This document shows, piece after piece, positions 6,192 through 16,879 of a stretch of 21,254 bases of DNA. The DNA is taken from positions 1 to 21,254 of the IMG/VR virus record IMGVR_UViG_3300035698_001128; one strand, written 5' to 3'. Positions within the stretch are counted from its first letter, which is position 1; each line of letters starts with the position of its first letter. The notes under the pieces are model-generated. The model searched no databases. It was not told the DNA's origin and saw only the letters and a program-made list of their open reading frames with translations. The position numbers were made by a program, and so were the translations under genes. The stretch is from a virus.

Positions 6192-8615
6192 TTAATTTGT
6201 AAGTGACGCTCTTCTTTCTAGTAAAGCGTCGGAATCTAATCCTTTTTGAATTTCTGAAGATACCACATAAGCTTTTGGTGCTCTTGATAATCTAATATCT
6301 AATTTTTTAAGTAACGCTAATAATTCCGGATTGGTTCCAGCTGATGAGTTATTTAAGCCTTTAGCACCGTTATTTATTTGTTCTAATAAAGGTAGATACT
6401 GAGAGGTTGCTGCTGCATTTATGACGAACTCTCCGTCTGATAAACGTGCATTAATAGAGTCAGATGTACCTGATCCTGCTCCTTGTACCAATCCACCTGT
6501 TGCAAATCCAGATCTTCCTCCGTTACTAGATCCACCAGAAGAAGAAGAGGAAGAAGATACTGATCCTCCACCACCAGACTGTGCTGCAGCGATAGCAGAA
6601 TTCTTAGCTTTTTCCGCGATTCCTAATTGGATCCCTGTTGTAGCCCCTATTAGAATTCCAGCAATAGGACCAGCAATAGGACCTAATGTTGCTATAGCTT
6701 TTATAATAGCTAATGCACCAGATGATATGATCTGTCCAGCATCTAAAGCAAATGTTTGTTTTGCAGCCTTTATTCTTAATTTTTGTTCCTCTGCTCTTCT
6801 TTTTGCATCAACAGCTGCTAGTCTTTGGTTTTTTTCAGCCTCTATTGCAGCAATAGCGTTTGCATTTTCACCAGCAGCAGCAGCTTGTCTAGCGTAGTTT
6901 TCTTCTATTAATATGGTTTGGTTATCATAGATAACCCCAATAGCATCTATATCTGATTTAGTATTAGCAGCGATTGCAGATAGAAGTCCAAGTCCAGCAT
7001 TTACAACCTCAAAGAAATCTTGGGTCTCCTGACCAAGCTTTTCAAAAAATTCGGAAGTAGTTAAAGTAGATTCTGTCTGTGTTTCAGTAATCTCTTCTTG
7101 TATTTTAACAGATTCTAATAGAGCTTCTTGGTAAAGCTTTTCGTATTTTATCTTTTCTATTGATCCTTCTTCTGATAAACCTATTTGTTTAAATATAGCA
7201 GCACTAATAGCGTTAGATGCTGTTAATTCTATATTAAGTCTTTCATTAGCATTTCTCTTAATACCATCTAAAGTCTTATCACCAGATTCTAAAAAGGATC
7301 TTTCTAATCTAGCTAACTCAGTCTCTATTTGAGTTATAACCCTTTCTAACTCTTCAGCAATTGCTTTAGGTCCAGGAATAAAGTTCTCTACTACAACTTC
7401 TTTTTCAGAATCTATATCAAAGTCTATTAAAGTATCAAGTTCTGCATTAAGTTTTTTAGCATCCTCTATTGCCTTTTTGTTATTGGCTTCCCTAATCTTT
7501 AATCGTTCGGCACCAAAAGTAGTTTCTAAAGCTAGAAGTTCTATTTGGGTATCTTTATAAAGATCTGTTTCCTTACCAGCTTCAAGTTCTTCTAATTTTA
7601 ACTTATCCTCTAGGAATTGTTTTTTAGCAGCAAAGATTTCTGCATCTGATGCCTTTGCAGCTTCTAATCTTTTAATGTTTCTCTCTCTTTCAACAGCAGT
7701 TGCTTTAAGATCCTCTATTAATTGTTGTTTAGCTTTTTCTTTTTCTGATTCTTCAATGGCTTTTTTAGCTCCGTCTTTAAATATTTTCGCACCAGCAGCA
7801 ATACCAGCTTTAATCTTATCTAGATCCAAAGTAAATATACCACTTAATATAGTTCCTACAGAATCGGCGATTTCACTAAAGCTAGTAAAGAAGGTTTTGA
7901 ATACTGAAATACCAGCGGTTAATAAGTTACCCCAACCTCCTATAGATTCTGCAAATTTATCTACTAGAAGTATAGCTTGACCAAATGGACCTAAAAATAT
8001 TAGAACGTTTTTAGCGAATTCTTTAATCTTACCTGAGGATCCTGAAATAACTTTTGATAATTTATCCCAGTTAGCAACTAGAAGACCAACACCAACTAAA
8101 ATTAAACCAATTCCAGTAGCTGCTAAAGCCAATTTAAATAATTTAAGTGCACCGGTAGACGTACCAACCACTGCAGTATAAGCTCCTTGAGCTATTGCAG
8201 ATGCTTTAGTAGCAACATTAGAAGCAATGGTAGCAATTTCTCCATCTTTCTTTGTTGCGGTGTATATTGCTTCACCAGTAGCAGATAAAGCAAGAACTGC
8301 ATTTGTCTTTTTAAGAGTTTCTTCTAACGCCTCGTTCTCCCCAGTGAAAGAAGATATAGCTAAACCAGCAGCACCAAGCCCACCAGATACTTTAGCAATG
8401 TCTCCTGCTAATGCTCCTGCGTCTATACCTCTAACTGCTTTAGAAGTCTTATCTGCTACCGCTTGTGTCTTTTGTATTTCCCTAGAAAGCTTTTTAAACT
8501 CCTTTGAATTAATACCCACATCCTTTATCTCGTCATTTAAAGAGGCTAACTTATTATCTAAGTCTCCTAGGGTTGTGGTTTTTACGTTAATGTCTATGTT
8601 TGCTTGTCCAGCCAT
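6192..8615 (-). CDS. Tail tape-measure protein
   Basis: This 807-aa helical protein sets tail length in siphophages. The N-terminal ~100 residues form a coiled coil ('LASLNDEIKDVGINSKEFKKLSREI'). A hydrophobic, membrane-like segment lies at 162-181 and a second at about 634-667. Long Lys/Glu-rich coiled coils lie between them. A Gly/Ser low-complexity linker (about 680-700) leads to a motif 'FATGGLVQGAGSGTSDSINARLSDGEFV', here split across residues 704-731, that is common at tape-measure C-termini. By the usual ~1.5 angstrom per residue, the tail would be roughly 120 nm. It follows the baseplate-like gene by 30 bp, and unusually the prohead protease gene comes next. Confidence 0.85.
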   Translation of the reverse strand: MAGQANIDINVKTTTLGDLDNKLASLNDEIKDVGINSKEFKKLSREIQKTQAVADKTSKAVRGIDAGALAGDIAKVSGGLGAAGLAISSFTGENEALEETLKKTNAVLALSATGEAIYTATKKDGEIATIASNVATKASAIAQGAYTAVVGTSTGALKLFKLALAATGIGLILVGVGLLVANWDKLSKVISGSSGKIKEFAKNVLIFLGPFGQAILLVDKFAESIGGWGNLLTAGISVFKTFFTSFSEIADSVGTILSGIFTLDLDKIKAGIAAGAKIFKDGAKKAIEESEKEKAKQQLIEDLKATAVERERNIKRLEAAKASDAEIFAAKKQFLEDKLKLEELEAGKETDLYKDTQIELLALETTFGAERLKIREANNKKAIEDAKKLNAELDTLIDFDIDSEKEVVVENFIPGPKAIAEELERVITQIETELARLERSFLESGDKTLDGIKRNANERLNIELTASNAISAAIFKQIGLSEEGSIEKIKYEKLYQEALLESVKIQEEITETQTESTLTTSEFFEKLGQETQDFFEVVNAGLGLLSAIAANTKSDIDAIGVIYDNQTILIEENYARQAAAAGENANAIAAIEAEKNQRLAAVDAKRRAEEQKLRIKAAKQTFALDAGQIISSGALAIIKAIATLGPIAGPIAGILIGATTGIQLGIAEKAKNSAIAAAQSGGGGSVSSSSSSSGGSSNGGRSGFATGGLVQGAGSGTSDSINARLSDGEFVINAAATSQYLPLLEQINNGAKGLNNSSAGTNPELLALLKKLDIRLSRAPKAYVVSSEIQKGLDSDALLERRASLTN

Positions 8616-13487: not shown

Positions 13488-13961
13488 TTATACGTTTATA
13501 TTTATTGTACCAACACTATTTATAGTGTCTATTATATTTTTCTCTATTTCTCCTGGAAGATCTTGCTCTATTCTTTTTGTGGCTACATCTTCTATAGCTG
13601 CTATTGCAGAAGCAATCCACGGTTTAGCTTTAATTCCAAATTTATATATCGAAGTTCTAGCGCCAAAGGGTAAGCCTCCTCCGACCATCTTAAAGGAACC
13701 TGAATACTTAAAAGAAAGCTTTTGATATCCACCAGCAGAAGTACCACCAAGGGTTCCAGCTACTCCTTCATCTAGGAAAAGACCATAATCATTAAACTCT
13801 AATAGATATTTTGGATCATCCTCTGTACCCCCTACCTTAACAGAGATAGAATTCATAAGTGATCCAGACTTCTTACGAACAGAAGAAGAAGCTAGAGCTT
13901 CCTGTGCGGCAGATCTAAGCAGGTTAGTATATTCCTCTAGGTTAAGTTCAATCTGAGTCAT
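13488..13961 (-). CDS. HK97 gp10-like neck/tail protein
   Basis: This 157-aa protein opens with a helix and then 'SSVRKKSGSLMNSISVKVGG', followed by 'LEFNDYGLFLDEGVAGTLGG'. The 'R.tG.L..sI.v' segment followed by 'YG.flDeG' is the layout of the HK97 gp10 family, small proteins at the head-tail neck. It begins in TAATG overlap with the tail-terminator-like gene and ends one base before the 570-aa tail gene. The family call is by pattern. Confidence 0.7.
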   Translation of the reverse strand: MTQIELNLEEYTNLLRSAAQEALASSSVRKKSGSLMNSISVKVGGTEDDPKYLLEFNDYGLFLDEGVAGTLGGTSAGGYQKLSFKYSGSFKMVGGGLPFGARTSIYKFGIKAKPWIASAIAAIEDVATKRIEQDLPGEIEKNIIDTINSVGTININV

Positions 13962-14407
13962 TAGTTAAATGGTTTTTCCGTAAGACAGTTATATTGAAAT
14001 ACGTCTAACGCTATAGTCATTGTATTACCAGCCATAAAAGCAGTGAACCTTTCTTGGAACGGAGTTATTAAAGTACCTGGTGGATTCAACCAGGATTCTG
14101 TACTAGAGTCTATGTATAGGAGGGCCGAATAAATATCCATTAAAGTAGAACCTGTATCTGATACGATGTCTTCGAAATTTAGCTTAGAAGGAAACAGTTC
14201 ATCCATACAGATAAGCTGAAAAGTAAACCTAAATATTCCCTCTCTGGGTACAGAAGTTGGTTGGGGTATTATATAAATTATAGGTCCATTAAAATCTGGA
14301 AGGTCTTCAGCGTCATTTAAGAAACCATAACGAACCTCGTTAACCATTTTATGGGATAAGCAAAGGGTTCTGAGTCTATCTACTATTTGTCTTTGGGTTG
14401 TTAACAT
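13961..14407 (-). CDS. Tail-terminator / neck-like protein
   Basis: This 148-aa protein has an N-terminal helix ('TTQRQIVDRLRTLCLSHKMVNEVRYG'), a strand 'GPIIYIIPQPTSV', then 'FRFTFQLICMDELF', a helix with 'SDTGSTLMDIYSALLYI', and a final strand 'MTIALDVFQYNC'. The alternating helix-strand plan and the '...mD......n..di.SDt...l.Di' block fit small tail-terminator proteins that cap the tube and join it to the head. It starts 23 bp after the frameshifted chaperone-like gene and is coupled by TAATG to the gp10-like gene. No catalytic residues are expected. Confidence 0.6.
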   Translation of the reverse strand: MLTTQRQIVDRLRTLCLSHKMVNEVRYGFLNDAEDLPDFNGPIIYIIPQPTSVPREGIFRFTFQLICMDELFPSKLNFEDIVSDTGSTLMDIYSALLYIDSSTESWLNPPGTLITPFQERFTAFMAGNTMTIALDVFQYNCLTEKPFN

Positions 14408-14430: not shown

Positions 14431-15251
14431 TTATTTCTTAGCTCTGTTTATAGCGTCTTGTTTAGCTTTCTCTGTAACATAATTGGCAAGGGTTAAAAAC
14501 GTCATATAGTTTGTTTTGAATGTTGCATCCACTTTGGCTACTTCTTCATTAGAAAATATCCAGACTACTGGAAGCCAACCAAAGCCTTCTAGGGTTGCTT
14601 CAGATTCTCCTCTAAGGTAATCTGGTGTAATTGCGTCTTCATCTCCTTCAGGTGGTTTCTTAAAGAGACTAGGGAACTTTTCTGTAACTCCCTGGATAAA
14701 ATCAAAAAAAAAGTAACGACATGATGCGCTATATATGCTGGAGAAGAATCTATAGTTTTTGACCTTGACTCACACTTTAATGGGTCATAAGGTTCTATTT
14801 CATATTTGAGCGTATTCATACTTTTAATGATCCATCTTCTAAACCACTGTGACTTGGTCTTGTGACCAAACTTAGATATGATTCTAAGCTTCATAGTAGA
14901 CATAAAGGACATCTTAGAAATTGGCCTGTATAAATAACTAACCATTAAGCTTAAATGTATTTTAACATCTGCTGCAATAGACATAAGGTCATCGAATAAA
15001 CCAAACGGCATATCATTTAGGTCTTGTAGTCCATAAAGTACACCGTCCTCACCCATAAATATCTGAGCAACTATAGGATCGTGCTTTGGTGTAATCGAAC
15101 CAATTCGAAGAGACTCTATTTCACTTATAGTTATCTCGTTTTTCTTTTTGCCAGTTAATGCACAAAGTAAATCCTCAGGCTTTTTAGAATCTCCATTCTT
15201 AAGGAGTCTCTGATATTGAATGGTTGTCATATTATCCCAAGTATATCTCAT
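14431..15251 (-). CDS. Tail assembly chaperone-like gene with -1 frameshift
   Basis: The zero frame from the ATG at 15251 gives 220 aa and ends at 14589. A second, clearly coding stretch in the -1 frame continues 'FDFIQGVTEKFPSLF...EATLEGFGWLPVVWIFSNEE...' to a TAA at 14431-14433, just before the next gene. The two join at nine T residues (14712-14704): after ACT TTT TTT at residues 180-182, slipping back one base gives TTT GAT and a 273-aa fusion. Lambda-type G/GT tail chaperones use a programmed -1 shift and also sit upstream of the tape measure, and the N-terminus ('YTWDNMTTIQYQRLL') fits such proteins loosely. A sequencing indel in the homopolymer or a broken gene are the alternatives. 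Confidence 0.65.
14704..14712 (-). other. T9 slippery run, proposed -1 frameshift site
   Basis: Nine consecutive T on the coding strand place two Phe codons (F181, F182) over T TTT TTT, which allows both tRNAs to re-pair after a one-base backward slip. No strong downstream hairpin was apparent by eye, so a long homopolymer may be enough on its own. Confidence 0.6.
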
Positions 15252-15284: not shown

Positions 15285-15623
15285 TTATTCGCCCGGGGTT
15301 TCGTAGTTTTCCGTGTCAGTAGGGGGTATATTATAGGGTTGGTTTATATTAAATTCGTTTTTATTTGGTTTGTGGTTTGGTTTGTATACATTTGGACTTC
15401 TATCGAATCTAACTATTCTAGTAAATTTCTCAGAAGCTACAAAACCAAGTCCGAATATAACTAATGTTAACATACCATCATATAGGAATTCGTCAATACT
15501 TAGATCTAAAAAGAGATTACCAAGATACCCAATAGACAGAAGGCCAAAAGCTAAAATAGATATAGCTCTTTTAGAAGACGGGTTACCTTCATTATCTTTT
15601 AAAACTGAGGATATCCAGGACAT
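15285..15623 (-). CDS. Two-TM membrane protein, holin-like
   Basis: The 112-aa product has two hydrophobic segments, about residues 20-39 (ISILAFGLLSIGYLGNLFLD) and 50-65 (GMLTLVIFGLGFVASE), joined by a short acidic loop, then a polar, Asn/Pro-rich tail. Two transmembrane helices with a hydrophilic C-terminus fit class II holins and also other small membrane proteins that Bacteroidota phages carry next to the terminase. It overlaps the large-terminase stop as TAATG. No lytic enzyme is in the window, so a lysis role is unproven. Confidence 0.6.
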   Translation of the reverse strand: MSWISSVLKDNEGNPSSKRAISILAFGLLSIGYLGNLFLDLSIDEFLYDGMLTLVIFGLGFVASEKFTRIVRFDRSPNVYKPNHKPNKNEFNINQPYNIPPTDTENYETPGE

Positions 15624-16879
15624 TAGTATCTGTTTCTTGAACTAGCAAACCCGAATTTGGGTTTACCTGTATTATTTGTATAATTAGATACTGCCATAGC
15701 CAGTGACATAACAATATCATCATGAGCTCCGGAAACTCCTTTATAGGTAAGTAAACCAGAGGGTAGAATCTTATATCCAAATGTTGCTAATTCATTATGG
15801 AGTTCCGGCCAAACAGCAGACGTAGGAAATTGTACAGCACCTTCTGATATTTGGAGCTTTAGATTTTCTATAATATCGGACTTAGTTTTATTGGTAGTGG
15901 TAAAGGGTACAACTAAAGAACCTACTTTTATTTTAAGTTGTTCAAATATGACAGATCCTATATTATTCAGTTCCACAAAGGTCGAACATCGCCATTGGAG
16001 TATCTTTGAAACTACCCCGTCCATTATCTGTTCCCAAGAGGTTTGTCTCTCTCTGAAATAGTCTACTATATTACCCTTATCGTCAAGAATCGTTAATACT
16101 GTATAGTCATCTGCAATTGCAAGGTCTAATCCTGCTCTATAAAGTACTCCTGGTGTTGGTTTCTTTTGAAACTTAGATAGTGTAGAGATTCTGTCTACTC
16201 CTTCGAATACCAAGGACGAGGAATCTGTAAACTCCCCGAGGTACTCAGAAGCAAATATAGCAGGAGGGAGAAGCTTACGTGCAAACTGTATTTCCTGTGG
16301 ATCTATATATGGATTTTCTTCGGTCTTTATCGTATAGGATCTCCAGTCAGTAAATTCCGGGTCTAAACCAAGATCAAAAAGATCCTTTAAATGATTCTTA
16401 CCTCTAGGTGTACTAAAGAAGCAAATCTTTTTACCTTTGATAAGCGTGGCTGGTTTTAGAATCTCGTTCCAAAGATTCTCTCTTTGATAAGCGTGTTCAT
16501 CACATAGTAAGTAATCGAATGTATTTCCTCTAATGGAATTGTAGGCTTCACCAGAGAAAAAAGACATCGTAGATCCATTCTTGAAATTTATTACTAGATC
16601 CTGTGCATTATTAGAAGCCACTAACATGACTGCAGAGTCTCCTAACGACTTTAACATTTCAAGGTACAGCTTTTTAGACTGGGAAAATACCGGTGATATT
16701 ACACCCGTCATCATACTAGGTGCTTCTAATGTAAACTTAAACGCTAAATTTAGAATCATTAGAGATTTACCACACTGTCTAGACGAGGAAATTACATGAT
16801 GCTTGGCCGGAGTATTTAAGATTCCACCAAGTATTCTAACCTGTGATGGATAAGGAGTAAAGTTAGTAGTTATATTCAT
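15623..16879 (-). CDS. terL: Terminase large subunit
   Basis: This 418-aa packaging motor has both expected domains. The ATPase part has a Walker A at 32-39 (SSRQCGKS), a Walker B at 124-128 (LLCDE) with catalytic Glu128, and a coupling motif 'FFSTP' at 154-158. The nuclease part has acidic residues at Asp252 (AGLDLAIADD), Glu303 (VELNN) and Asp387/Asp388 (GAHDDIVMS), as in RNase H-like terminase nucleases. It pumps DNA through the portal and cuts concatemers. The start overlaps the small-terminase stop as TAATG. Confidence 0.95.
   Translation of the reverse strand: MNITTNFTPYPSQVRILGGILNTPAKHHVISSSRQCGKSLMILNLAFKFTLEAPSMMTGVISPVFSQSKKLYLEMLKSLGDSAVMLVASNNAQDLVINFKNGSTMSFFSGEAYNSIRGNTFDYLLCDEHAYQRENLWNEILKPATLIKGKKICFFSTPRGKNHLKDLFDLGLDPEFTDWRSYTIKTEENPYIDPQEIQFARKLLPPAIFASEYLGEFTDSSSLVFEGVDRISTLSKFQKKPTPGVLYRAGLDLAIADDYTVLTILDDKGNIVDYFRERQTSWEQIMDGVVSKILQWRCSTFVELNNIGSVIFEQLKIKVGSLVVPFTTTNKTKSDIIENLKLQISEGAVQFPTSAVWPELHNELATFGYKILPSGLLTYKGVSGAHDDIVMSLAMAVSNYTNNTGKPKFGFASSRNRY

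Follow-up and report, generated by a model that had tools for sequence, protein, structure and literature searches.

A conserved run of at least nine T residues and a probable programmed −1 frame change in a tail-chaperone-like gene of a Bacteroidota phage family

The candidate frameshift gene and its neighborhood

The window analyzed here, a 21,254-nucleotide stretch of viral DNA from IMG/VR, carries on its minus strand a gene that can be read in two frames. The 0-frame ORF (15251..14589) encodes 220 amino acids, comprising an N-terminal domain and a 37-codon 0-frame tail past a run of exactly nine T residues (14704–14712; A9 on the plus strand). Around the run the 0-frame mRNA reading is GTT ACT TTT TTT TTG ATT, the codon phase being ACT TTT TTT TTG, and both T_TTT_TTT and T_TTT_TTG are found inside it. 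The −1 frame (14431..14706) has 91 open codons followed by a TAA stop (14431–14433) and encodes what would be the C-terminal domain of a 273-residue fusion; both frames are read across 14589..14703. The −1 frame is followed after 24 nucleotides by the next gene, whose start is at 14407. An earlier note, made from the letters of this DNA, had described a 220-residue 0 frame meeting, on nine T residues, a 91-codon −1 frame that ends just before the next gene, and the computed reading frames agree with it on each count. A first-order Markov model of the window predicts 1.7 A/T runs of at least nine residues per 21 kb, and therefore the T9 run is by itself unremarkable in such AT-rich DNA.

The neighboring genes described here are also on the minus strand. 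The terminase large subunit gene, terL (15623..16879), is separated from the frameshift gene by a gene for a 112-residue protein (15285..15623) that has two hydrophobic stretches and is holin-like by eye; a family match for this protein was looked for and none was found. The 112-residue protein also occurs at this position in the related locus L002, and in most of the distant relatives the frameshift gene directly follows terL. On the other side lie a gene for a 148-residue protein (13961..14407), tail-completion/terminator-like by position and homologous to gp41 of Nonlabens phage P12024S (E 6e-31), and one for a 157-residue tail completion or Neck1 protein (13488..13961; phrog_5, E 3e-4), a homolog of P12024S gp42. 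Together with genes for proteins of 570 and 1042 residues, these are the four genes that separate the frameshift gene from that of the tape measure protein in the window (807 residues; 6192..8615; phrog_25241, E 5e-14). The order terL, frameshift gene, tail-completion-like gene, Neck1 is conserved, and the 140–160-residue gene abutting the −1 stop is homologous in 67 of 80 loci. Elsewhere in the window, the first ATG (position 2463) of the portal ORF (1198–2463) overlaps an upstream gene for a 153-residue protein by 62 nucleotides; the portal protein probably initiates at a later Met (MKEAQDK...), the overlap likely being an annotation effect.

Conservation of the T run and the −1 frame among homologs

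Homologs were reached by way of the window's portal protein, which matched that of phage P12024S, whose terL in turn led to ~80 phages; with a terL profile, 80 IMG/VR and 63 genome loci were fetched. The sets of homologs were gathered by TerL similarity, N-domain similarity or whole-genome profile search, and the T run was never a criterion. Single-protein scans of IMG/VR gave only three close relatives, which come from other metagenomes, have 65% amino acid identity to the window gene and carry exactly T9 with the same −1 frame, and a tblastn search with the gene and its neighbors in a phage collection returned nothing useful. An HMM iterated from P12024S gp38 alone recovered 85 homologs including that of the window (E 8e-21), every complete one of which has T9 or T10 and an open −1 frame, and an N-domain scan added 80 further loci, with all 77 complete copies having T9 or T10 and the −1 relation. 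Among the matches listed for a pattern search of IMG/VR, 599 of 600 stretches encoded relatives. When 395 Bacteroidota genomes were searched twice with profiles, each search identified one true homolog, in a Flavobacterium genome (L172:1474-2237; the same genome also holds locus L112), where the copy is prophage-like and has T9, the −1 C-terminal domain and tail-completion and Neck1-like neighbors. A match to Flavobacterium phage 11b and the weak profile matches in the other host genomes were rejected as chance.

The final set consists of 149 distinct complete homologs from IMG/VR phages, the Nonlabens phages P12024S and P12024L and the one Flavobacterium genome. As kinship inflates independence in conservation statistics, cluster counts are given alongside; the 149 sequences form 81 clusters at 80% amino acid identity and 24 at 50%. 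The run is T9 in 139 of the 149 and T10 in the other 10, with T7 or T8 in none, and the T10 members differ by a whole extra codon rather than an extra base, keeping the relation between the 0 and −1 frames. All 149 encode the C-terminal domain, which is conserved in the alignment, in the −1 frame, and the 0-frame tail beyond the slip site varies from 24 to 87 codons. No homolog is single-frame, and no run length places the gene in one frame. The run occupies codon phase 2 in 144 homologs, phase 3 in four and phase 1 in one, representing few independent phase changes, and is at least nine in each. Under codon usage, the probability that all silent sites of the run would stay T is ~e^-41 over 34 clusters; conservation of the run at the same point in every homolog is far beyond chance. 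The comparison of both frames and the T run among homologs that the earlier note had called for thus upheld its central proposal, namely that the frame is changed by −1 in a programmed way at the T run and that two products, one short and one long, result. Retained as it is by every one of the 149 relatives, the run is in our view a built-in decoding switch.

Comparison of the window with L002 revealed constraint on both frames. Over the 182 codons 5′ of the run, differences by codon position number 52/35/105 with a silent rate of 0.79, as in normal 0-frame coding, and past the overlap the −1 frame shows 10/7/31 with the same silent rate. In the 38-codon overlap, substitutions are spread 10/8/10 over the three positions, and the silent rate is 0.29 in the −1 frame and 0.38 in the 0 frame, against 0.79 outside the overlap. 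Because it falls in each, a pattern that a truly one-frame gene would not show, both frames appear to be kept there; across the family, the effect in the overlap is weaker than in this pair, and the 0-frame tail is modestly constrained.

These results led us to exclude sequencing error, a pseudogene and phase variation as explanations. Homopolymers are prone to error in sequencing and assembly, and a run of 10 T would join the two frames into one true gene; this reading has a negligible probability given that the same frame relation recurs in 149 sequences, drawn from numerous metagenomes, the two isolate phages and one Flavobacterium genome, and that the overlap is constrained in both frames in the window and L002. 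It is scarcely more credible that the gene is a contingency locus whose run is switched by replication slippage. Long homopolymers do mutate fast, but there are no members in the in-frame ON state, and the T10 members, with their whole extra codon, preserve the −1 relation.

Likely role of the two products

We consider it highly probable that this tail-chaperone-like gene is subject to programmed recoding into the −1 frame at its run of nine or more T residues, at whichever level slippage takes place. Standard decoding would yield the 220-residue protein and −1 recoding the 273-residue fusion. As no homolog has drifted to a single frame, both products are presumably needed, most likely in a set ratio; their production, their ratio and their role in the tail are what we infer from the genomic comparisons. 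The virus is probably a flavophage of marine-type bacteria, and the two-protein gene probably serves in building its tail.

Tail chaperones have as their hallmark a short, abundant N-domain protein with a rare −1 extension, encoded in a structural operon. By analogy, the gene is likely to work like the G/GT tail assembly chaperone pair of lambda, a role suggested by its architecture, its neighborhood and what is established for lambda G/GT and P2 E/E′. As in lambda G/GT and P2 E/E+E′, a small structural gene would undergo a −1 shift close to its 3′ end and give a short and an extended product, both of which are encoded here, and the P2 system likewise has a T-rich heptamer without a hairpin (PMC3091744). 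Unlike those systems, the window gene has no detectable sequence relation to them, is not beside the tape measure gene, and in its family always has T9 or T10 as the slip run instead of G_GGA_AAG or T_TTT_TTG. Neither domain matched a known chaperone family among Pfam, NCBIfam, PHROG and PDB profiles, no match of the gene to the HK97, lambda, TP901-1 or phi11 chaperones was obtained, and a weak hint came from phrog_166 ("tail protein"), matched by 10 of 44 members (E 0.002). Known lambda-type chaperones bind the proteins of the tape measure and the tail tube, do not occur in virions and are made at a set ratio of products. Their genes lie between the major tail protein and tape measure genes and adjoin the latter; here, four genes intervene. 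The earlier description of the gene as tail-chaperone-like therefore remains plausible from architecture and neighborhood and gained no profile link to known chaperones, and we have not filed the gene as a member of that class because homology is undetectable and the tape measure gene does not adjoin it.

The same features could be read as the same recoding in some other structural protein, such as a head–tail connector or a minor head protein of which a longer form is rarely made. The position of the gene between terL and the tail-completion and Neck1 genes would suit this, as would the lack of chaperone homology. We judge it unlikely, given that tail chaperones are so characteristically encoded, within a structural operon, as a short form with a rare −1 extension and that the window has no other chaperone candidate beside the tape measure gene.

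Level at which slippage may occur

Slippage could occur in transcription or in translation. In the former case, RNA polymerase would add an extra U to some mRNAs, on which ribosomes would then enter the −1 frame; in the latter, a tandem −1 slip of the ribosome would take place on T_TTT_TTT. We lean, slightly, to the polymerase because the run is always at least nine in three codon phases, no downstream RNA structure was detected and A/T runs of nine or more are otherwise avoided. In the other genes of the same phages, two A/T runs of at least nine were seen against 23 expected from synonymous shuffling, with a mild reduction in runs of eight (29 versus 40 expected). Other flavophages and Bacteroidota loci likewise avoid long A/T runs, there from length eight, and in bacteria such avoidance most commonly begins at nine (Baranov et al., PMC1088944). 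The conserved run is thus at or above the length at which slippage is expected in the host and of a kind otherwise avoided in genes, an avoidance that may also reflect replication slippage.

Ribosomal −1 frameshifting on T_TTT_TTT or T_TTT_TTG, as in P2 E/E′, is the level that the earlier note had implied; it is the less favored of the two and still a serious possibility. An in-phase X_XXY_YYZ heptamer, T_TTT_TTN, is present in every homolog and in all three codon phases, and the additional T residues could be incidental, arising from conserved Phe, Val, Tyr and Trp codons. The residues flanking the Phe–Phe pair are indeed conserved (V/L before, Y/W after), which together with hydrophobic −1 residues partly explains the T at the run ends. 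A stimulatory downstream structure is often, not always, present at ribosomal −1 sites. Folding downstream of the run gave a mean z of −0.01 versus −0.05 in control windows (p 0.70, 34 clusters), and a hairpin that is possible in the window and also in L002 was rejected, there being neither covariation nor a family-wide signal. Since phage P2 shifts on T_TTT_TTG without a hairpin (PMC3091744), a ribosomal shift here would need nothing more than the heptamer; for lambda, a rate of only ~1 in 30 is required (PMC5009743).

Against a ribosomal shift, six T residues and a further base of any kind would be enough for it, yet none of the 149 sequences has a run of seven or eight. Three phase-3 lineages bring the run to nine on its 3′ side instead, where an extra T occurs in only 3 of 31 phase-2 clusters (p ~0.001 by inference). 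In other genes, heptamers in the phase for ribosomal slippage are no rarer than out-of-phase ones, and in E. coli the ribosome shifts weakly at U_UUU_UUU (PMC5009743). The eighth T is never replaced by C, a change that would be silent in both frames (P 0.0003 counting all sequences, 0.045 at 70% clusters); this is suggestive of the polymerase, weakly so once relatives are thinned.

To our knowledge, most cases of transcriptional slippage so far have come from IS elements and genes for type III secretion. Programmed cases such as Shigella mxiE, Thermus dnaX and IS elements resemble the window gene in having a coding-strand A/T run of ~9, and in mxiE an added nucleotide likewise gives a longer fusion (PMC1088944). 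The window gene differs from them in being a phage structural gene with family-wide conservation, for which slippage is proposed from sequence. Our literature search, whose coverage left most subscription journals outside, found no case of a tail assembly chaperone made by transcriptional slippage. That a large unannotated phage family makes its tail chaperone pair by RNA polymerase slippage on T9, and not by ribosomal frameshifting, is a combined proposal that we put forward tentatively. If true, the ratio that governs tail assembly would be set at transcription by the host polymerase. The T9 gene offers a clean natural test of transcriptional slippage setting a phage structural protein ratio.

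Counterparts in the Nonlabens phages and a second nine-base run

The distant homolog in phage P12024S (L021:1237-1931, corresponding to NC_018271 23136-23830) shares with the window gene T9, the same −1 C-terminal domain and the same neighbors. Its gp38 comes directly after terL; it contains the run as C T9 A, and the −1 frame there encodes that domain, of which a portion has been annotated as gp39, a gene of its own. Unlike in our reading of the window gene, the frameshift went unrecognized, and gp38/gp39 of P12024S and gp40/gp41 of P12024L (L179) are each one recoded gene annotated as two hypothetical genes. The decoding switch has thus been overlooked by genome annotation, and the PHROG families phrog_32199 and phrog_38404 are two halves of one recoded gene. 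With it, the phages that obtain two proteins from a single gene through a change of frame would be joined by a sizeable family of Bacteroidota phages.

The phage represented by L002 and L007 has a further run of nine bases, A9 (L007:4035-4043), which is non-coding and falls between genes, immediately ahead of an ATPase-like one.
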